Positions 28,779-47,402 of a DNA stretch of 64,000 nucleotides are shown piece after piece. This DNA comes from Micromonospora purpureochromogenes (lineage in GTDB: Bacteria > Actinomycetota > Actinomycetes > Mycobacteriales > Micromonosporaceae), in the NCBI RefSeq assembly GCF_900091515.1, contig NZ_LT607410.1:5828001-5892000 (forward strand), in the 5' to 3' direction. How positions within the stretch are numbered: the stretch's first letter is position 1; each line of letters starts with the position of its first letter. A model generated the notes under the pieces. It was not told where the DNA came from. It saw only the letters and a program-made list of their open reading frames with translations, and made no database searches. A program made the translations under genes and the position numbers.

Positions 28779-29037
28779 TTTGCATGCCTTGCTGGGCACG
28801 TCATCGCGCAGCAGGAGACGACGGGCCCACATGACACCCGCCGTCGGTGTCTGCGTCCGGAACCCGCCCTCAAACACGTGGCTGGCGTAAGGCAGGCGGG
28901 TGCACGTGTCCACGATCACTGCACGGCGTCCACCGCCGGCCGGAACGGTCCCACCGCTCCCAAGCAGCCAGACCATCACAGAGACGCGAAGAAGGCTCCA
29001 GCCTGATGGAGAACCACCAGGCGGAGCCTTGATCACC
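28779..29037. other. Gene-free segment left of the first tRNA-Lys remnant
   Basis: Apart from the hairpin at 28992-29030, no gene is supported in this stretch: the short ORFs on both strands lack ribosome-binding sites and family features. It is the putative junction between the left flank and island 1. Confidence 0.4.
28992..29030 (-). terminator. Hairpin beside tRNA-Lys remnant A
   Basis: AAGGCTCC pairs with GGAGCCTT, extended by GCCTG/CAGGC with a one-base bulge. Its position relative to the tRNA 3' end is the same as that of the terminators beside the other three copies, so it is likely a retained tRNA terminator. Confidence 0.55.
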
Positions 29038-29081
29038 GGTGCGCCGCCAGGGACTCGAACCCCGAACCCGCGGACCAAGAG
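29038..29081 (-). repeat. tRNA-Lys 3'-half remnant A (att-like)
   Basis: GGTGCGCCGCCAGGGACTCG.. matches the 3' half of the tRNA-Lys genes at 31.6 and 47.4 kb without change up to the anticodon loop, then differs at two bases (CC for TT) before AAGAG and diverges. It is not a functional tRNA. Read as the distal attachment-site copy of an element integrated at tRNA-Lys. Confidence 0.75.
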
Positions 29082-31557: not shown

Positions 31558-31562
31558 ATTGC

Positions 31563-31638
31563 TGGTGCGCCGCCAGGGACTCGAACCCCGAACCCGCGGA
31601 TTAAGAGTCCGCTGCTCTGCCAGTTGAGCTAGCGGCGC
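31563..31638 (-). tRNA. tRNA-Lys (CTT), copy B
   Basis: A full 76-nt cloverleaf including encoded CCA: acceptor GCGCCGC/GCGGCGC, D-arm AGCTCAACTGGCAGAGC, anticodon loop CTCTTAA (CTT) and T-loop GGTTCGAGTCC. The gene and about 15 upstream bases (CTCGCTGGCAACGGA on the plus strand) match copy D. Both copies look functional. Confidence 0.95.
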
Positions 31639-31735
31639 TCGCTGGCAACGGATGGGCACCCTACCTAACCGCCGATCGGGTCCGGAGACAGGTTCCCGCC
31701 GATCTCGCCGATGTGATCGGTAGCCCCTCCTCCTG

Positions 31736-32710
31736 TCACAACCACCCGCGCTGCGCCGCGTGCGCCCCGGCCTGGAAACGGCTGCGGGCCTGCAGGCGTT
31801 CCATGAGGGCGGCCGTGATCCGCCGTACGGTACGAAGCGACAGTCCGAGCTTGCGGGCCGCAGCCTCGTCCGTGTGGCCGGCCGCCAGGATCCGTAGCAC
31901 CTCCCGTTCGAACGGCTCGACGCCGTCCTCGGCGACCGGTGCCGCGACGCCGATCGGGTTCGCGGTGCGCCAGATCTGCTCGAACAGCGCGTAGATGGCG
32001 GCGACCACCCCGGCGTGTGTCACCTCGACGCCACCCCGGCTCGAATCGTTCGGGTCCAACGGCAACAACGCGGTACGTCGATCCACGACGACCATCAGCA
32101 TGGGGAGTGTCGGCGTCGTCCGTATCTGGCCGCCCAGGCCGGTCAGCCAGCGCGCGTAGGCCACCACGTCCGGGTCGTTGCGGTAGCTGTCCTGGTACAC
32201 GCAGCGGATGGCGACGCCCCGCTCGATGGCGAGCTGGTTGAGGGGCTTGCTCGACTCCCTTCCGGCCGGCGCCTGAGCACTGCCCGGATTGAGCGACACG
32301 CACTCGACCCGGGCGTCCATCGCCAGTTCCTCCAGCCGGAGCCGTACGGCGTCCACGTCCTCGTACCGTCGGACACCCTCCTGGGCGCGCGCCGCGTGCT
32401 GCTCGGCGGCGATGGACTTGATCGCCGCGCGGGTGGCCTCGACTTGGCGCTGGCGTTGCAGTACGTCCGCCTCGGCGCGGGCCAGCAGCGCCGCGAGCCC
32501 GACTTCCGGGGACACCGGCCGCATCGAGCCCGGCTGAACGGAGGACGGCCGGAGCAGGGCGAGATCGGCGAGTTCGTCGAGCGCGGCACGGACCGTGTCG
32601 TCCTCGATGGCGAGGTGTCCGGCCAGATCGGCGACCCCCATGTCGGGCAGCGCGAGCATCGCGCGATAAACCTGTTCGGCCTGTTCCGTGACGCCCAGTG
32701 GTTCGAGCAC
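31736..32710 (-). CDS. TrmB-like/LuxR hybrid transcriptional regulator
   Basis: 324 residues. The N-terminal winged HTH (about 5-60, EQAEQVYRAMLALPDMGVAD) resembles TrmB; a helical linker (85-110) and a central alpha/beta sensor-like domain (about 115-255) follow; the C-terminus is a LuxR/GerE HTH (HTDEAAARKLGLSLRTVRRI, about 277-296). There is no receiver domain. GTG 32710 has GGAGG upstream. It is divergent from a small secreted-type peptide gene, so control of that operon, possibly in response to the peptide, is inferred. Confidence 0.87.
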   Translation of the reverse strand: MLEPLGVTEQAEQVYRAMLALPDMGVADLAGHLAIEDDTVRAALDELADLALLRPSSVQPGSMRPVSPEVGLAALLARAEADVLQRQRQVEATRAAIKSIAAEQHAARAQEGVRRYEDVDAVRLRLEELAMDARVECVSLNPGSAQAPAGRESSKPLNQLAIERGVAIRCVYQDSYRNDPDVVAYARWLTGLGGQIRTTPTLPMLMVVVDRRTALLPLDPNDSSRGGVEVTHAGVVAAIYALFEQIWRTANPIGVAAPVAEDGVEPFEREVLRILAAGHTDEAAARKLGLSLRTVRRITAALMERLQARSRFQAGAHAAQRGWL

Positions 32711-32787
32711 CCCAACCTCCGCCCCCGTGGTGAGCCGAGTATCTGGACGGCTCTCTCGATGCGCAAGGCCGTGGGACGGAATGATGG

Positions 32788-32814
32788 GCTGCTGGCATCA
32801 AGGTGCCATGCAGC
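32788..32814. promoter_or_regulatory. Dyad in the LuxR/peptide divergent promoter
   Basis: GCTGC-TGGCA, 6-base spacer, TGCCA-T-GCAGC: 10-bp arms with one bulged base, roughly centred between the divergent starts (32710 and 32948). Candidate binding site for the hybrid regulator. Confidence 0.45.
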
Positions 32815-32947
32815 TTCGTGCCAGGCCGCGGATCGTGACATCACCGAACCGGGCCGGCAGGCTCTGCGCAGAGCCGGCGATCGATCTCCACACGGGGAAC
32901 CGCCGGACTCGAATTCACCGCATTCCCGCCACAGGACGGAGTTCGCC

Positions 32948-33154
32948 ATGAATCCATCGATGCGCATCATTTTTATCGTCGCCGCTACGGCGGCGGTCAC
33001 GATCGGCACGGGAACGCCCCACACGACGGGGCTCGGCGGAAGTGCGGTGACCTCCGTCGTGCCGGTGGCCGGCGGTTTCGAATGGGCCACAAGTCCCGCA
33101 GGCGCGTCCCTCATGGGCGGCGACGCCGTCGATGGCGGCTTCGAGTGGGCCTGA
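32948..33154 (+). CDS. Small secreted-type peptide with duplicated GGFEWA motif
   Basis: 68 residues. A short basic start and hydrophobic segment (IIFIVAATAAVTIG, 7-20) suggest export. The rest is small and Gly/Ala/Thr/Val-rich and carries GGFEWA twice: residues 42-47 and again as the exact C-terminus, 63-68. GGAG lies 7 bases before ATG 32948. It is divergent from the TrmB/LuxR regulator and followed two bases after its stop by the 81-aa gene. This architecture (exported precursor, repeated C-terminal aromatic motif, adjacent regulator) resembles peptide pheromone genes; function is inferred only. Confidence 0.7.
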   Translation: MNPSMRIIFIVAATAAVTIGTGTPHTTGLGGSAVTSVVPVAGGFEWATSPAGASLMGGDAVDGGFEWA

Positions 33155-33155
33155 C

Positions 33156-33401
33156 GTGCGGATGGCGGTCTTCACACTCCCCCGTCGGCAACGACCGCAC
33201 CCCACCGACGAGGAAATCCTTCGCGATCTGATCTGGGCGCACACACAACCGCCGGAGCAGGTCGAGCACGTTCGGGTACGGGCGGGTCCGGAACAAATTC
33301 GCGTGACCCTGTTCGTACTCGGCGCCGACTCCCTCGCGGCCGTGCAGGTGGCCGAGGCCATCCGCCGTCGCATCAGCGCCCTGCCGGCCTTCCGCGACTG
33401 A
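33156..33401 (+). CDS. Small conserved-type protein downstream of the peptide gene (81 aa)
   Basis: Sequence begins VRMAVFTLPRRQRPHPTDEE and contains EILRDLIWAHTQPPEQVEHV and LFVLGADSLAAVQVAEAIRR. No signal peptide or membrane segment; predicted alpha/beta. GTG 33156 (two bases after the peptide stop) or ATG 33162 may be the start. Its tight linkage to the peptide suggests a role in the peptide's production, immunity or sensing, but no family function is known to me. Confidence 0.65.
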   Translation: MRMAVFTLPRRQRPHPTDEEILRDLIWAHTQPPEQVEHVRVRAGPEQIRVTLFVLGADSLAAVQVAEAIRRRISALPAFRD

Positions 33402-33473
33402 CGAATCCCGCACCGCGCCAGGCGGCACGGCTGCCCGCGAATTCCCCGCAGACATCATCGACTCAAGAGATGA

Positions 33474-36400
33474 GTGACCACCCATATGATCACCACCGCG
33501 AGACGCAACCGCAGAACGCGATGGCGCGCGGCAACCACCGCCGTCCTCCTCACTCTCGGCATCGCCCCGGCCGTCAGCCCCGACCCTGCTCGGGCGGAGA
33601 CACCTCAGATCACCAGCATGTCGGCGGCCCAGCTCAACACCACGTTCAACGACTACGGCAACGCCGGCGGCCACTGGACCGGCGGCGACAGCACGGCGTC
33701 GGTGCCGCTGCCGGACGGCCGCACGGCCTGGCTGTTCTCGGACACCTTCCTCGGCACGGTCAACGCAGACGGTAGTCGCCCCACCGGCACCCCCCTGGTC
33801 AACAACACCATCGTGGTACAGAGCGGCACCTCCCTGGTCGACACGCTGCACGGCGGCACCAGCACCGCACCGCAGGCGCTGGTCAAGCCCAGCCAGACCG
33901 ACGAGTACTTCTGGGTCGCCGACGGCACCGTTGAGAACGGCGCCCTGAAGGTGCTCTACAACCGGTACCGCCGGTCCGGCACCGGCAACCTGGACTTCGA
34001 GATCACCGGCACCTCGTTGGCAACGTTCGCCCTGCCGGGTCTCACGCTGACCGGTGTCACCGACCTGCCCCTGAGCAACACCGTCGCCTGGGGTTCGGCG
34101 ATCCTCGAGGACGGTGCCTACACCTATGTGTACGGCTCGGAATCGTCGGACGGCCTGAGGTTCGCCAAGATCGCGCGCGTGCCGAGCGGCGGCCTCGGCG
34201 GCGCCTGGCAGTTCTGGACGGGCTTCGGCTGGTCGGCCACCGAGTCCTCGGCCGCCAGGGTGCTCAGCGGCGTCGGCACCGCGTACGGGGTGCAGAAGGT
34301 CGGCAACGAGTACGTCCTGCTCACGCACGAGAACAACCTCATCTTCGACGCGCAGTACCTGACGTACACGGCACCGTCGCCGACCGGCCCGTTCAACACC
34401 CCGCAGTACGTGTTCACGGCCCCGGAACAGGTGCCTGGCGAGCCGATCGTCAGCTACGACGCACGCCTGCATCCCCATCTGGCGCCGACCGGGAAGCTGC
34501 TGGTGTCATACAACGTGAACACGTTGGACGACGCGCGTACGTACGCCGACGCCAGCATCTACCGACCACGCTTCGTCGAGGTGACGTGGCCGCGGCCGAC
34601 ACCGGATCCGGCCACCCTGCCCGGCAGGCCGACCGGCCTGACCGTCGACATCGACAGCCTGGGTGTCGCGACCCTGAGTTGGCAGCCCGTCGCCGGCGCA
34701 ACCGGATACCGTGTCTACCAGCGGGACACCACCGCTGGCCAGACGCACTTCGCACGGTTGGCCAGCACGGTCACCGGAACCTCCGCAAAGCTCGACCGAC
34801 TGATGAGCGAGCACGTGTACGAGTTCAAGGTGACCGCTGTCGGCGCCGCCGGCGAGGGAGGCTTCTCGGACACGGTGAGCGCGACTCCGACCGTCAGCGC
34901 TCCTCCGGCACCCACCGCTGTCACTGCGACCGCCGACGACCAGGGCAGCATCACGCTCTCCTGGGCGCCTGTCCCGACCGCCTGGAACTACCAGGTGTAC
35001 CGCCGCGACGTCACCGCCGGTGAGACGGAACGCTCCTTCGTGACCCGGCTCGGCGGTACCGTCACGAGCCACACCATGCAATGGCTGGAGCCGGGCCACG
35101 TATACGAGTTCCACGTGGTGGCCTCCCACGGAGGCGGCGACTCGCCGGCGTCGGCGACGGCGACAGCCACCGCCCGCTACGCGCCACCCCCGGCCCCCAC
35201 CGGGCTGACCGCCACGGCGAATCCCGACGGCTCCATCGGAGTCTCCTGGACGGGCCTCGATACGAGCGTCTTCTACTGGGTCTACCAGCGGGACGTCACC
35301 GCCGGCGAGACGGAGTTCACGAAGCTGGACGTGCCGACCGAGGCGACCTCGATGACGGCCGCGTTCCTGACCCACGCCCACCGGTACGAGTTCAAAGTGG
35401 CCGCGTCCAACCGCGGTGGCGAGGGAGCCGCCTCCGCGCCGGCCAGCGCGACGTCCGCGTACCCGAAGCCGGCCCCGCCGTCGGGCCTGACCGCCACGGT
35501 GGGCGACGGCGAGGTCGTGCTGAACTGGTCCGCCAGCAGTACGCCCAACGTGTGGTACCTGGTGTACCAACGCGACGTGACGGCGGGCGAGAGCGCCTTC
35601 ACGCAGTTGCCGCTGCCGATCACCGAGTGCTGCACGGTCAAGGCCGCGTACCTGATGAACGGGCACCGTTACGAATTCAAGGTCACCACGACGAGTCAGG
35701 GCGGCGAGTCGACCGCGACCAATCTGGTGCAGGCCACCCCGCAGATGCCGCTGCCCGGCCAGGTGACCGGGCTGACCGCGACCGCGCAGAGCAACGGCAC
35801 GATCAAGCTCGCCTGGACCGCCCCCGGCGACAACCTGTGGTTCGACATCTACCAGCGCGACGTCACCGCCGGTCAGGCGTTCAGCAAGCTGCCACTGCCC
35901 GTCACCACCTGTTGCACATTCACCGCCGACGTCCTGACCCACGACCACATTTACGAGTTCAAGGTCACGGCGACGAACGCCGCCGGAGCGGGCCCGCAGT
36001 CCGCCGCGGCCCAGGCGACCGCTCACTACGACCCACCCGCGGCACCCACCAACCTCCGGGGCGAGTCGGCCGGGGACGGCACGATCCACCTGGACTGGGA
36101 TCCGCCCGCCGCCGGAAGCTTCTACTACTGGGTGTACTTCCGCGACGTGACCGCCGGGCAGGCCACCTTCACCAAGGGGCAGTTCCCGACCAACCGCACT
36201 GAGGTCGACCTGGCCTACCTGGCCTACGGCCACGTCTACGAGTACAAGGTCGCCGCCTCGAACGCGGGCGGAGAGGGGCCGACGTCGACGACCGTGCGGG
36301 TGACCGCCACCGGAGGGCTGCCAGCCGCCCCGACCGGGCTGACCGCCTCTGCCGGCGACGGTGAGGCACGGCTGTCCTGGACAGCCAGCTCCACCAGCGG

Positions 36401-37826
36401 CGTGACGTACGACGTCTACCAGCGCAACGCCTCCGCCGGGCAGTCCTGGCAGAAGTTGCCGCTGCCGGTCAGCGGCACCTCGATGACGGCGTCCTACCTG
36501 GCCAACGGCAGCACGTACGAGTTCAAGGTGACCGCCTCGAACTGGGCGGGCGCGAGCGGGGCCTCCAACGTCGCGTCGGCACGGCCGATGCCGCCGTTGC
36601 CCGCCGCCCCGAGCGGTCTGACCGCGAACCCGGGCGACGGTCAAGCGACGCTGCGCTGGACGGCGAGCCCGTCCAGCAACGTGAACTACATGATCGAGAT
36701 GCGTCCTGTCGGCGGCGTGTGGGACCAGCTGCCGATCGGTGTGTCCTGCTGCTCGTACACCGTGAAGCTGCTGCGGAACGGGACCACCTACGAGTTCCGG
36801 GTGCGGGCGCACAACATCTCCGGGGACTCCGCCGCCACCGGCGTCGCGAGCGCCCGGCCGATGCCGCCGTTCCCGCAACCCGCCTCGGGCCTGACCGCGA
36901 CCCCGGGCGACGGCCAGGCCACCCTCAAGTGGGCGGCCAGCTCCACCGCGGGCGTCTCGTACCGGATCGAAATGCGGGCCAGGGGTGGCAACTGGCAGGC
37001 CCTGCCCTTCGCGGTCCCCTGCTGCTCGTACACCGTCAAGCTCCTGCTGAACGGCACCACCTACGACTTCCGGGTGCTGGCCACGAACCTCACCGGTACC
37101 GCGGCCGCCACCAACACCGCGAGCGCCAGGCCGATGCCGCCGATGCCCTCCGAACCGGACGGTATCGTGGTGGACCCGGAACACTCCTGGGCCGTGATGG
37201 ACACCTGGGTGTCGTTGAGCTGGGCGCCGAACAAGACGCGGGGGGTCTGGTACTCGGTCCACCTCAGGAACGTCTCCACCGGTTCGTCGTGGTTCGAGGT
37301 GTACCGGAGGAACGCCCCCGACTCGACGTACGAGACCCTCTACAACCTCCCGGGCGGCACCTACGAGTTCAAGATCAGGGCCTTCAACATCACCGGCTCC
37401 GTGGAATCGGGGCCGTTGCGGGCCGAGGTCAAGAAGAGGAAACCCGACCTCTACCACTCCTTCACGGCGGCCACGACCACCAGCCGTGACGCGTGGAGTT
37501 CCGCGCGGGCGAGCCAGTCGGTCTGGAGCGAGTACTACTTCGACTGGTCCGCCGACGGATGCAGCTTCAAGCTCGGGGACCATCGCGCCGACTACATCGT
37601 GATCTACGACAACGACTTCTTCCGGAGGCCGTGCGAACGTCACGACTTCGGCTACCGCAACCACGGTTGGTGGGGCACAAAGGACTACATCGACTGGGCC
37701 TTCGCGTACGACATGCAGAAGAAGTGCCAGGCGGACGCCGCCTTCAAGCTCCAGTGCGAGCATGACGCCTCGATCTACTTCGCCGGGGTGCAGCTACTGG
37801 GTGGCAGCGCCTGGAACGGGCTGTAG
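33474..37826 (+). CDS. Secreted multi-FN3 protein with C-terminal phospholipase A2
   Basis: 1450 residues. A signal peptide (1-41, ending PARA) leads to a propeller-like domain of the DUF4185/DUF5005 kind (about 45-375; GGHWTGGDSTASVPLPDGRT, WLFSDTFLG). Ten fibronectin type III repeats follow (about 380-1325), several sharing VYQRDVTAG and YEFKV and some a CC pair. The last ~90 residues match prokaryotic secreted phospholipase A2: CERHDFGYRN with the His-Asp pair H1390/D1391 and four cysteines for two disulfides. It should act outside the cell, binding a surface or glycan and cleaving phospholipids. ATG 33486 is an alternative start. Confidence 0.87.
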   Translation: MTTHMITTARRNRRTRWRAATTAVLLTLGIAPAVSPDPARAETPQITSMSAAQLNTTFNDYGNAGGHWTGGDSTASVPLPDGRTAWLFSDTFLGTVNADGSRPTGTPLVNNTIVVQSGTSLVDTLHGGTSTAPQALVKPSQTDEYFWVADGTVENGALKVLYNRYRRSGTGNLDFEITGTSLATFALPGLTLTGVTDLPLSNTVAWGSAILEDGAYTYVYGSESSDGLRFAKIARVPSGGLGGAWQFWTGFGWSATESSAARVLSGVGTAYGVQKVGNEYVLLTHENNLIFDAQYLTYTAPSPTGPFNTPQYVFTAPEQVPGEPIVSYDARLHPHLAPTGKLLVSYNVNTLDDARTYADASIYRPRFVEVTWPRPTPDPATLPGRPTGLTVDIDSLGVATLSWQPVAGATGYRVYQRDTTAGQTHFARLASTVTGTSAKLDRLMSEHVYEFKVTAVGAAGEGGFSDTVSATPTVSAPPAPTAVTATADDQGSITLSWAPVPTAWNYQVYRRDVTAGETERSFVTRLGGTVTSHTMQWLEPGHVYEFHVVASHGGGDSPASATATATARYAPPPAPTGLTATANPDGSIGVSWTGLDTSVFYWVYQRDVTAGETEFTKLDVPTEATSMTAAFLTHAHRYEFKVAASNRGGEGAASAPASATSAYPKPAPPSGLTATVGDGEVVLNWSASSTPNVWYLVYQRDVTAGESAFTQLPLPITECCTVKAAYLMNGHRYEFKVTTTSQGGESTATNLVQATPQMPLPGQVTGLTATAQSNGTIKLAWTAPGDNLWFDIYQRDVTAGQAFSKLPLPVTTCCTFTADVLTHDHIYEFKVTATNAAGAGPQSAAAQATAHYDPPAAPTNLRGESAGDGTIHLDWDPPAAGSFYYWVYFRDVTAGQATFTKGQFPTNRTEVDLAYLAYGHVYEYKVAASNAGGEGPTSTTVRVTATGGLPAAPTGLTASAGDGEARLSWTASSTSGVTYDVYQRNASAGQSWQKLPLPVSGTSMTASYLANGSTYEFKVTASNWAGASGASNVASARPMPPLPAAPSGLTANPGDGQATLRWTASPSSNVNYMIEMRPVGGVWDQLPIGVSCCSYTVKLLRNGTTYEFRVRAHNISGDSAATGVASARPMPPFPQPASGLTATPGDGQATLKWAASSTAGVSYRIEMRARGGNWQALPFAVPCCSYTVKLLLNGTTYDFRVLATNLTGTAAATNTASARPMPPMPSEPDGIVVDPEHSWAVMDTWVSLSWAPNKTRGVWYSVHLRNVSTGSSWFEVYRRNAPDSTYETLYNLPGGTYEFKIRAFNITGSVESGPLRAEVKKRKPDLYHSFTAATTTSRDAWSSARASQSVWSEYYFDWSADGCSFKLGDHRADYIVIYDNDFFRRPCERHDFGYRNHGWWGTKDYIDWAFAYDMQKKCQADAAFKLQCEHDASIYFAGVQLLGGSAWNGL

Positions 37827-37845
37827 CCGCTCGGAGGCCATGGCC

Positions 37846-37882
37846 GGTGGCCGGTGACCCGTCTGTCGAGTCACCGGCCACC
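37846..37882 (+). terminator. Terminator of the FN3-PLA2 gene
   Basis: GGTGGCCGGTGAC pairs perfectly with GTCACCGGCCACC (13 bp, 11-base loop), 19 bases after the stop. Confidence 0.7.
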
Positions 37883-37895
37883 GCGCCGTCGGTCG

Positions 37896-37922
37896 CCCCC
37901 CCCCCCCCCCCCCCCCCCCCCC
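37896..37922. repeat. 27-base C homopolymer
   Basis: An uninterrupted run of 27 C between the FN3-PLA2 terminator and the next hairpin. So long a run is exceptional in a bacterial genome; it is either a real slippage-prone tract or an assembly or sequencing artefact. Confidence 0.9.
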
Positions 37923-38009
37923 GAGCGTGCGACGAGCTGCCGTGGCCAGGGGCCGGGATGATCTAGGTAGCTGTGCGTGCGGACCGGTCAAGACGGCCTG
38001 GACAGCGAA

Positions 38010-38039
38010 TCAGGCCCGGTCCATCCGGACCGGGCCTGA
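38010..38039 (-). terminator. Hairpin beside tRNA-Lys remnant C
   Basis: TCAGGCCCGGTCC pairs with GGACCGGGCCTGA (13 bp, ATCC loop), 12 bases beyond the tRNA 3' end on the minus strand; equivalent to the terminators of the other copies but different in sequence. Confidence 0.7.
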
Positions 38040-38051
38040 AGGTGTTACTGC

Positions 38052-38096
38052 TGGTGCGCCGCCAGGGACTCGAACCCCGAACCCGCGGATTAAGAG
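38052..38096 (-). repeat. tRNA-Lys 3'-half remnant C (att-like)
   Basis: 45 bases identical to the 3' half of tRNA-Lys copies B and D, including encoded CCA, ending at the anticodon (TTAAGAG on the plus strand), then unrelated sequence. This is the classic footprint of integration into the 3' half of a tRNA gene. Confidence 0.85.
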
Positions 38097-40787: not shown

Positions 40788-40970
40788 CTACTTCTTCTTG
40801 TTCCAGTTGTCCCAGCCGGGTCGGCTGTCGAACTTACCCTTGTTATCCCAGGCGGGGCGGTTGTCGAACTTCGCCGCGTCGATCGACGCTACCGACCGCT
40901 GCGGGTCGACGCCGAGGCGGGCGAGTTGCTCGGGTGCGGCGTTGACAAGGGTCGCGAGAGCTTTGGTCAT
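40788..40970 (-). CDS. amcA: Cyclophane RiPP precursor peptide (AmcA-type)
   Basis: 60 residues. Leader (1-33) with the APEQLARLGVDPQRSVASID segment; core holds two near-repeats K-F-D-(N/S)-R-P-(A/G)-W-D-N, giving F35-D-N37, W41-D-N43, F47-D-S49, W53-D-N55 and W56-N-K58. Aromatic-x-Asn/Asp/Ser triplets are the substrates of three-residue-cyclophane-forming radical SAM enzymes. GGAGGA precedes ATG 40970, which overlaps the amcB stop (ATGA). The tail KKK has no protease site visible. Naming follows family resemblance. Confidence 0.82.
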   Translation of the reverse strand: MTKALATLVNAAPEQLARLGVDPQRSVASIDAAKFDNRPAWDNKGKFDSRPGWDNWNKKK

Positions 40971-42103
40971 GGTGCTCCTCCTTGAGGGGTGAGGTGGTCG
41001 GTGGCGGCGCGGACGAGGGCCTGTCGGGTGGTCCGGCAGTAGGTCGTTTCTCGGGCGGTGAACGTCGCGTGCTCGAAGTAGCGGTTGCCGGCCTGGGCGC
41101 CGCGGCAGAAGTCGTAGAAGGCGCAGTGGTCGGCGCAGTCGTTGAGGGCCGTGACGAACTCGGCGACGTAGTCCAGGTCGCCGGCGCGGGCGAGCATGGC
41201 GGTGATCGGCTGATGGAGGACGTTGCCGGCGATGAAGTCGCCGTATCGCGGCTCTGTGATGCCGAGCAGCTCCGGTGACAGCAGCACCACCTGCCCATCC
41301 CAAGAGACGGTCGGGATCGGCTCGTACGGCGCGTGGTCGACGTGTCCGGCGCGGGTGGCGGCGAGATAGTCGGCCAGCCGGTCCACGTCGCGGATCCGCA
41401 GCGGGCTGCCGCCGACGCGACGTGCGATGAGGTGCTTCCAGAACCGGTAGGCGGCATCCTCCGACACCGGTGCCCGGTCGGCGCCCTCCTGCTCTTCGAT
41501 GTTGAAGCCCACCGACTCGCAGCCGGGCAGGCCGATAAAGAAGTCGACGAGAGGTTCCGCGTGGTCGATGGTTTCCGGTGTGACCACACAGATCACCGAG
41601 TACCGAAGCCCGGCGTCGGCCAGGGTCTGCATGCCGCGCAGGGCTCGGGCATCTGTCGACGTGCCGGCCCGGTCGAGGCGGTTCCGATTCAACGCGCCCG
41701 GTCCGTCGATGCTGGCCCCGACCTCGAACCCGTAAGCGGTGAACAGCTCGCACCACTGTCGGTTGATCAGCGTCGCGTTCGTCTGGATCTCGTGACGCAC
41801 CATCCCCGCACGCCGCAGCTCCTCGAACGGGGCCAGCAGATCCCGGAACAGCCCGATGGGTGTGGCGGTGGGTTCGCCCCCGTGCCACACGACGCTCACC
41901 GGATGACCGCTGTTCTGCTGGGCGATCGACTCCGCGCAGGCCTGCGCGACCGCGTCGCTCATCAGGCGGAGGGATCTCCGGTCGGGCAGGTAGCAGTAGG
42001 TGCAGTCGAGGTTGCAGAAGCTCGTCGGCTGCACGACCAGGGTGTGGAAGCTGCCGGCGACCGCCGGCTGGCCGGTGGCGTTGATGAGGCCGATGCCGTT
42101 CAC
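40967..42103 (-). CDS. amcB: Cyclophane-forming radical SAM/SPASM-type maturase (AmcB-type)
   Basis: 378 residues. The radical SAM cluster motif is C30-x3-C34-x2-C37 (CNLDCTYCYLP); HGGEPTATP is the GGE motif contacting SAM. The C-terminal auxiliary-cluster region has C323-x3-C327-x5-C333 (CADHCAFYDFC) and C356, a SPASM-type arrangement. It should crosslink aromatic rings to the beta-carbon of the third residue in the precursor triplets. GTG 42103 overlaps the upstream stop (GTGA); the stop overlaps amcA (ATGA). Confidence 0.88.
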   Translation of the reverse strand: MNGIGLINATGQPAVAGSFHTLVVQPTSFCNLDCTYCYLPDRRSLRLMSDAVAQACAESIAQQNSGHPVSVVWHGGEPTATPIGLFRDLLAPFEELRRAGMVRHEIQTNATLINRQWCELFTAYGFEVGASIDGPGALNRNRLDRAGTSTDARALRGMQTLADAGLRYSVICVVTPETIDHAEPLVDFFIGLPGCESVGFNIEEQEGADRAPVSEDAAYRFWKHLIARRVGGSPLRIRDVDRLADYLAATRAGHVDHAPYEPIPTVSWDGQVVLLSPELLGITEPRYGDFIAGNVLHQPITAMLARAGDLDYVAEFVTALNDCADHCAFYDFCRGAQAGNRYFEHATFTARETTYCRTTRQALVRAATDHLTPQGGAP

Positions 42104-47326: not shown

Positions 47327-47402
47327 TGGTGCGCCGCCAGGGACTCGAACCCCGAACCCGCGGATTAAGAGTCCGCTGCTCTGCCAGTTGAGCTAGCGGC
47401 GC
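47327..47402 (-). tRNA. tRNA-Lys (CTT), copy D
   Basis: 76 nt with encoded CCA, identical to copy B across the whole gene, with the same cloverleaf (acceptor GCGCCGC, anticodon CTT). The upstream (right-hand) flank CTCGTTGGCAACGGA shows it keeps its promoter side. As the rightmost copy next to core genes it is the best candidate for the original chromosomal integration target. Confidence 0.95.

Follow-up and report, generated by a model that had tools for sequence, protein, structure and literature searches.

The locus lies in a 64,000-nucleotide stretch of Micromonospora purpureochromogenes DNA (contig NZ_LT607410.1, positions 5,828,001 to 5,892,000; hereafter the window, in whose coordinates all positions are given). 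A regulator gene is divergent from a compact series of genes for a small peptide precursor, a partner protein and a phospholipase, with a dyad between the two transcription directions. The features are as follows.

31736-32710, minus strand: regulator of 324 aa with predicted TrmB-type winged helix, long helix, PLD-fold middle and LuxR HTH; proposed peptide receptor
32793-32808: candidate operator, exact dyad core TGGCATCAAGGTGCCA
32818-32824: further GTGCCAG beside the candidate operator
32948-33154, plus strand: peptide precursor of 68 aa with an N-terminal hydrophobic segment
33071-33088, plus strand: GGFEWA copy 1, precursor residues 42-47
33134-33151, plus strand: GGFEWA copy 2, precursor residues 63-68, the exact C-terminus
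33156-33401, plus strand: partner protein of 81 aa, GTG start at 33156, predicted beta-alpha-beta-beta-alpha fold
33474-37826, plus strand: protein of 1450 residues with FN3 repeats and a C-terminal prokaryotic phospholipase A2 domain; probable local output gene

This layout largely bears out the first-pass annotation, which had described a 68-aa ORF with two copies of GGFEWA, the second one C-terminal, and a 27-bp dyad at 32788-32814 between this ORF and the divergent regulator gene. The dyad is present and contains the exact core listed above. The 81-aa ORF is indeed next to the precursor gene, but the claimed gap of two bases is not there: its start is one base past the precursor stop. The FN3-phospholipase gene follows as described, separated from the 81-aa ORF by 72 bases; FN3 repeats were detected together with a phospholipase domain match in Pfam (PF09056, E 6.2e-13). 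Alternative starts exist for both genes: the database form of the partner (P0005) has 79 aa and begins at the ATG at 33162, and the phospholipase gene has an ATG at 33486. DNA encoding GGFEWA occurs at two sites in the 6.67-Mb genome, both in the 68-aa ORF. A simple scan found no terminator-like sites in 31600-38000. A run of more than 20 C occupies 37899-37922, just 3' of the phospholipase gene.

Tryptophan-motif peptides beside related regulators

Relatives of the regulator are common in the genus, with matches at E<=1e-20 in 90 of the 121 genomes searched. The profile of the partner protein, which we call the 85-aa family, matched in 30 of 160 genomes of the genus and in 18 of 296 genomes drawn across the class. 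We compared 41 genus loci: the window and 40 stretches around chosen matches. The order regulator-peptide-partner is the same in 23 of them (the window and L073-L094), and every peptide in these 23 contains G-[FYA]-x-W. The peptides of the Salinispora loci L087 and L088, whose regulator is 73% identical, end in GGGFEWS. Other arrangements are found among the remaining loci. A GGNEWG peptide with the partner occurs in L095, with no regulator of this family within 10 kb; in L104 a peptide with two GFGWD copies adjoins the partner and is convergent to the regulator; L096 has the partner and an ORF ending in SLIWD without the regulator. Regulator and partner occur without a Trp peptide in L097-L101 (regulator about 42% identical) and, differently arranged, in L102 and L106. 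L103 and L105 have a partner-like frame alone, and in L107-L112 the regulator is present and the partner was not found by this profile. The L097-L101 cassettes may represent a variant whose peptide was lost or changed. They precede TOMM-type RiPP genes, including a gene for a leader-binding/cyclodehydratase-like protein in L097.

A scan of GTDB with the regulator alignment extended the comparison to 81 loci, namely the window and the best 80 of 220 relatives. These come from Streptomyces, Kitasatospora, Micromonospora, Salinispora, Catellatospora, Actinocrispum, Actinocrinis, Sphaerisporangium, Nonomuraea, Nocardiopsis, Longispora and others. From inspection of the sequences, we assigned a Trp-motif ORF at 61 of the 81 loci (the window and 60 of the best 80 of 220), with weak assignments at L115, L182 and L190. 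The motifs include GFEWA/S, GNEWG, GFGWG, GFSWG, TWGWG, VIGWD, SISWD and others. The F-E-W-(A/T/N) form proposed in the first pass therefore had the Trp motif beside regulators right and its residue range too narrow. Some precursors hold five or more motif copies, and several from Streptomyces and Kitasatospora are multi-copy with the final copy at the end. VIGWD is present three times in L131 and five times in L191, the S. lavendulae CCM 3239 locus, IGWD five times (L149), and SISWD from two to at least five times (L161, L188). No Trp peptide was found by reading at 20 of the 81 loci, and 13 of these 20 form a single Streptomyces clade on the regulator tree. Reading by eye likewise revealed no convincing Trp peptide beside the regulator paralogues in the window's own genome (L004-L007, 27-34% identical).

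The excess of such ORFs over chance was assessed with a residue-free test, which replaced an earlier motif pattern that missed VIGWD. The test demands a hydrophobic start followed by a penultimate Trp or a repeated Trp-centred 4-mer, Trp being the sole residue used, and was run on the 81 homologous divergent regions (the window and the best 80 of 220 relatives), 1.1 kb each. It identified ORFs in 34 of the 81 regions, against a mean of 0.24 (maximum 1) in 100 dinucleotide shuffles of all regions, 2 of 81 antisense strands and 4 of 414 control windows taken 2.4-5.9 kb upstream. Upstream of more distant TrmB/LuxR paralogues in the genus (31-36% identical), the test identified such ORFs in 0 of 40 regions even with a looser motif included; the in-group genus loci gave 22 of 25 with the looser motif and 10 of 25 without it.

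The 60 tabulated precursors mostly begin with a hydrophobic segment (56 of 60; those below the cut are L128, L174, L175 and L181) and have K or R within 15 residues (56 of 60). The Trp is penultimate in 40, and 25 contain two or more motif copies. The L115 and L190 precursors have unusual starts. Beyond the motif, precursor sequences barely align, and the 68-aa peptide by itself, used as a database query, returned two candidates, none at E<=1.

Codon comparisons point to selection on the motif. Across ten groups of related precursors (36 precursors), pairwise comparison gives 39 synonymous against 19 nonsynonymous differences in motif codons, and 320 against 993 in the other codons (odds ratio 6.4, Fisher p 2e-11, with pairs within a group not independent of one another). 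As judged from these sequences, purifying selection is much stronger on the motif codons than elsewhere in the precursor. Among six GFSWG-ending precursors from Streptomyces, no pair differs in its motif codons, and of 420 comparisons at other codons 275 are nonsynonymous; since the motif codons in this group lack synonymous changes, constraint on DNA and on protein look the same there. The L149/L155/L169 group runs contrary to the trend, with eight nonsynonymous and no synonymous differences in the motif window. The first-pass annotation had named two findings that would speak against it, regulators without a neighbouring small ORF and GGFEWA free of purifying selection; the relatives gave the opposite answer on both.

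Peptide type largely tracks the regulator tree in these alignments. Mapping the types requires 18 changes, with L165 entered as having no peptide, compared with 53 for shuffled labels, and none of 200 shuffles was as low. The ISWD labels show no clustering on the tree (40 of 500 shuffles as low). Linked inheritance by itself might account for the agreement between peptide type and clade.

Regulator, partner, dyad and downstream genes

The first-pass description of the regulator held up in Pfam. Its C-terminus matches the LuxR/GerE HTH (PF00196, E 8.6e-8, 32.1 bits against a cutoff of 23.5), its N-terminus matches TrmB weakly and below cutoff (PF01978, E 0.0014), and no receiver domain was found. 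Neither an autoinducer-binding domain nor a TPR family gave a Pfam match at E<=1. An AlphaFold2 model built from 81 sequences (pLDDT 88.7, pTM 0.63) matches archaeal TrmBL2 (E 5.2e-13), TrmB (5.9e-9) and PLD-fold proteins; the full-length rmsd is large, and the domain arrangement in the model is therefore not reliable. On sequence and model together, the protein is probably a TrmB-type regulator with a predicted PLD-fold middle, plus a LuxR HTH. The PLD-fold domain of TrmB binds ligand (cf. the title of 2f5t).

The partner profile found its family at 60 of the 80 named loci (the best 80 of 220) after four rounds, 50 of them in the first, the latest matches being weak (for example L171 and L181). 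The partner model (pLDDT 92.5) has a beta-alpha-beta-beta-alpha order and gave no match at E<=0.001 in a fold search of the PDB. A match to PF00550 below its cutoff (E 0.0016) led us to consider a carrier protein. We rejected this reading because members of the family do not share the matched DSL stretch and the predicted fold is beta-alpha-beta-beta-alpha. Our guess is that the partner might be a co-regulator.

The dyad between the divergent genes is conserved. TGGCA-N6-TGCCA, a pattern derived from the same regions, is present with at least nine of its ten fixed bases in 32 of 81 intergenic 300-bp regions (the window and the best 80 of 220 relatives), compared with a mean of 0.9 and a maximum of 3 after shuffling and with 0 of 70 control windows. 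The window dyad is an exact copy. A wider regulon was not evident in the window's genome, which contains 12 matches against 14 for a reversed control.

Downstream genes vary: besides secreted FG-GAP proteins, some with wall-hydrolase domains, there are RiPP or NRPS genes and regulators. At 17 of 35 loci, the next genes include a member of one blastp-linked family of secreted proteins. In a scan of six members, FG-GAP repeats were present in four, one of which also has CHAP and another peptidase M23, and the other two have no Pfam match at E<=0.001; repeat-based linkage may join different enzymes. Secreted proteins of FG-GAP or tachylectin-like type occur at the Streptomyces loci, with a transglycosylase domain in that of L174. 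The window phospholipase joins no group among the next genes at the 35 loci, while the secreted family recurs; on these sequences, therefore, it is probably a local output and not a conserved part of the cassette.

A candidate peptide-pheromone cassette

We think it probable that the locus is a peptide-pheromone cassette with a receptor unrelated to RRNPP. A pheromone read by the regulator accounts most simply for a short Trp-centred motif that seems to be exported, is often multi-copy and is tied to one regulator clade and one candidate operator. The first-pass idea of a peptide-signalling locus is partly supported: it keeps its small-ORF co-occurrence and motif selection, and the phospholipase is probably no conserved component. 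Several observations count against signalling: the 20 of 81 loci in which no Trp peptide was found, L097-L101, the absence of the regulator in L095, the unclustered ISWD labels, the lack of a wider dyad regulon, and the codons of the FSWG and L149/L155/L169 groups.

From this arrangement we infer a course of export, cleavage, uptake and binding, a direction of control and a role for the 81-aa protein. The regulator would bind the TGGCA-N6-TGCCA dyad and control the divergent operon of peptide, 81-aa protein and output gene. The hydrophobic N-terminal segment, on whose hydrophobicity the prediction of export is based, would take the precursor out of the cell, where proteases would free short peptides ending at or just past the conserved Trp (here about GGFEWA). 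Released peptides would re-enter the cell, most simply via oligopeptide permeases, and bind the PLD-fold domain, switching the regulator. The 81-aa protein would serve as a cytosolic co-factor of this switch.

An unlikely alternative is that the peptide is a product instead of a signal, that is, the precursor of a ribosomal natural product or bacteriocin under control of the regulator. Multi-copy cores are known in some natural-product precursors. In L080, L083, L085, L086 and L089 the cassette is followed by a second LuxR regulator (about 213 aa, without the TrmB part as read by eye in L080) and then a DUF5825-type gene, and in four of these five loci by a homologue of RiPP radical SAM C-methyltransferases (family assignment by model for the L080 copies only). 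In the window, 3 kb past the cassette, lies an AmcA/AmcB pair at 40791-42103 on the minus strand, a multiple-cyclophane RiPP precursor (NF041721) with its radical SAM maturase (NF041718). However, no modifying enzyme is common to the next genes of the 35 loci, such enzymes being present in one sub-group, and the largest family among the next three genes is the secreted one (17 of 35). The constant neighbours of the peptide are the regulator and the 85-aa protein.

Slightly less probable still is a peptide acting inside the cell or membrane as a small partner or inhibitor of the regulator, with neither secretion nor signalling. The few precursors with weak or odd hydrophobic segments named above would suit it, but nearly all of the 60 clear the hydrophobicity threshold and nearly all carry K or R within 15 residues, and repeated copies with variable spacers fit release of each copy better. 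A peptide serving as chaperone, inhibitor or wall-targeting partner of a downstream secreted enzyme is very improbable: the secreted family does come next at 17 of 35 loci, some members combining FG-GAP with CHAP or M23, yet a Trp peptide is retained where the next gene encodes a response regulator (the Kitasatospora TWGWG locus L158), a carrier protein with an AMP-binding enzyme (Actinocrispum, L115) or a glycosyltransferase (L162), and peptide type tracks regulator clade.

The pheromone reading invites comparison with the RRNPP/RRNPPA systems of Bacillota, such as PlcR-PapR, Rap-Phr, Rgg-SHP and ComR-ComS. Both have a small precursor, predicted here to be exported, beside a cytosolic DNA-binding regulator, and a short linear core near the precursor C-terminus; duplicated cores are described for Rap-Phr (PMC11343458). 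The cassette differs in its TrmB/PLD-fold/LuxR receptor, in which no TPR domain was found, its actinobacterial hosts, Trp-centred cores and 85-aa third component. As proposed, it would operate in the manner of RRNPP signalling; with no TPR match in its receptor, it falls outside that family. The regulator model resembles archaeal TrmB/TrmBL2 in its predicted winged helix at the N-terminus, its long helix and its PLD-fold domain, but adds the LuxR HTH and a linked peptide gene, and its PF01978 match is below cutoff. The regulator shares the C-terminal HTH of actinobacterial LuxR solos and LuxR-type regulators, and gave no autoinducer-binding or receiver domain match. None of the four window proteins matches an agr-type sensor kinase or AgrB-like membrane protease. 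A possible analogue of the 85-aa protein is the Aur1O/TylU/OvmZ group of co-activators, described in PMC8910723 as proteins with no known domain that work with a neighbouring activator; they act with other regulator families, and the likeness is one of description.

Many of the known antibiotics come from actinobacteria, whose signals, as far as described, are chiefly small molecules, for example gamma-butyrolactones. Peptide pheromones read by cytosolic receptors are described chiefly in Bacillota (PMC4748050). Our search of the open PMC literature found no published description of the peptide-regulator pair, and the strings VIGWD, SISWD, GFGWG, GFEWA, GFSWG and GIGWD occur there in contexts that seem unrelated from titles and abstract openings. 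The cassette may be an undescribed chemical "word" for cell-cell communication in actinobacteria. The chances are about even that it typifies a new actinobacterial class of peptide quorum sensing, in which a TrmB/PLD-fold/LuxR receptor responds to short Trp-centred linear peptides from single- or multi-copy precursors, with a dedicated 85-aa third component, and gates secreted wall hydrolases, lipases and antibiotic genes. As proposed, the class would span Streptomyces, Kitasatospora, Micromonospora/Salinispora, Catellatospora, Actinocrispum, Sphaerisporangium, Nocardiopsis and others, with GFEWA, GNEWG, GFGWG, GFSWG, TWGWG, VIGWD and SISWD as clade dialects. If so, a peptide system beside genes for exoenzymes and biosynthesis would supply inexpensive synthetic inducers of silent clusters, and peptide types would predict receptor-peptide matching.

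No tRNA-Lys gene was found in the 49 related loci scanned. In the window, the cassette sits exactly between an intact tRNA-Lys(CTT) gene (31563-31638) and a 48-bp repeat (38049-38096) that is an identical copy of the 3' end of tRNA-Lys(CTT). A 90% copy of this 3' end occupies 29034-29081, and another intact tRNA-Lys gene is present at 47327-47402. The stretch 31560-38096 has the appearance of a tRNA-Lys island built up by accretion.
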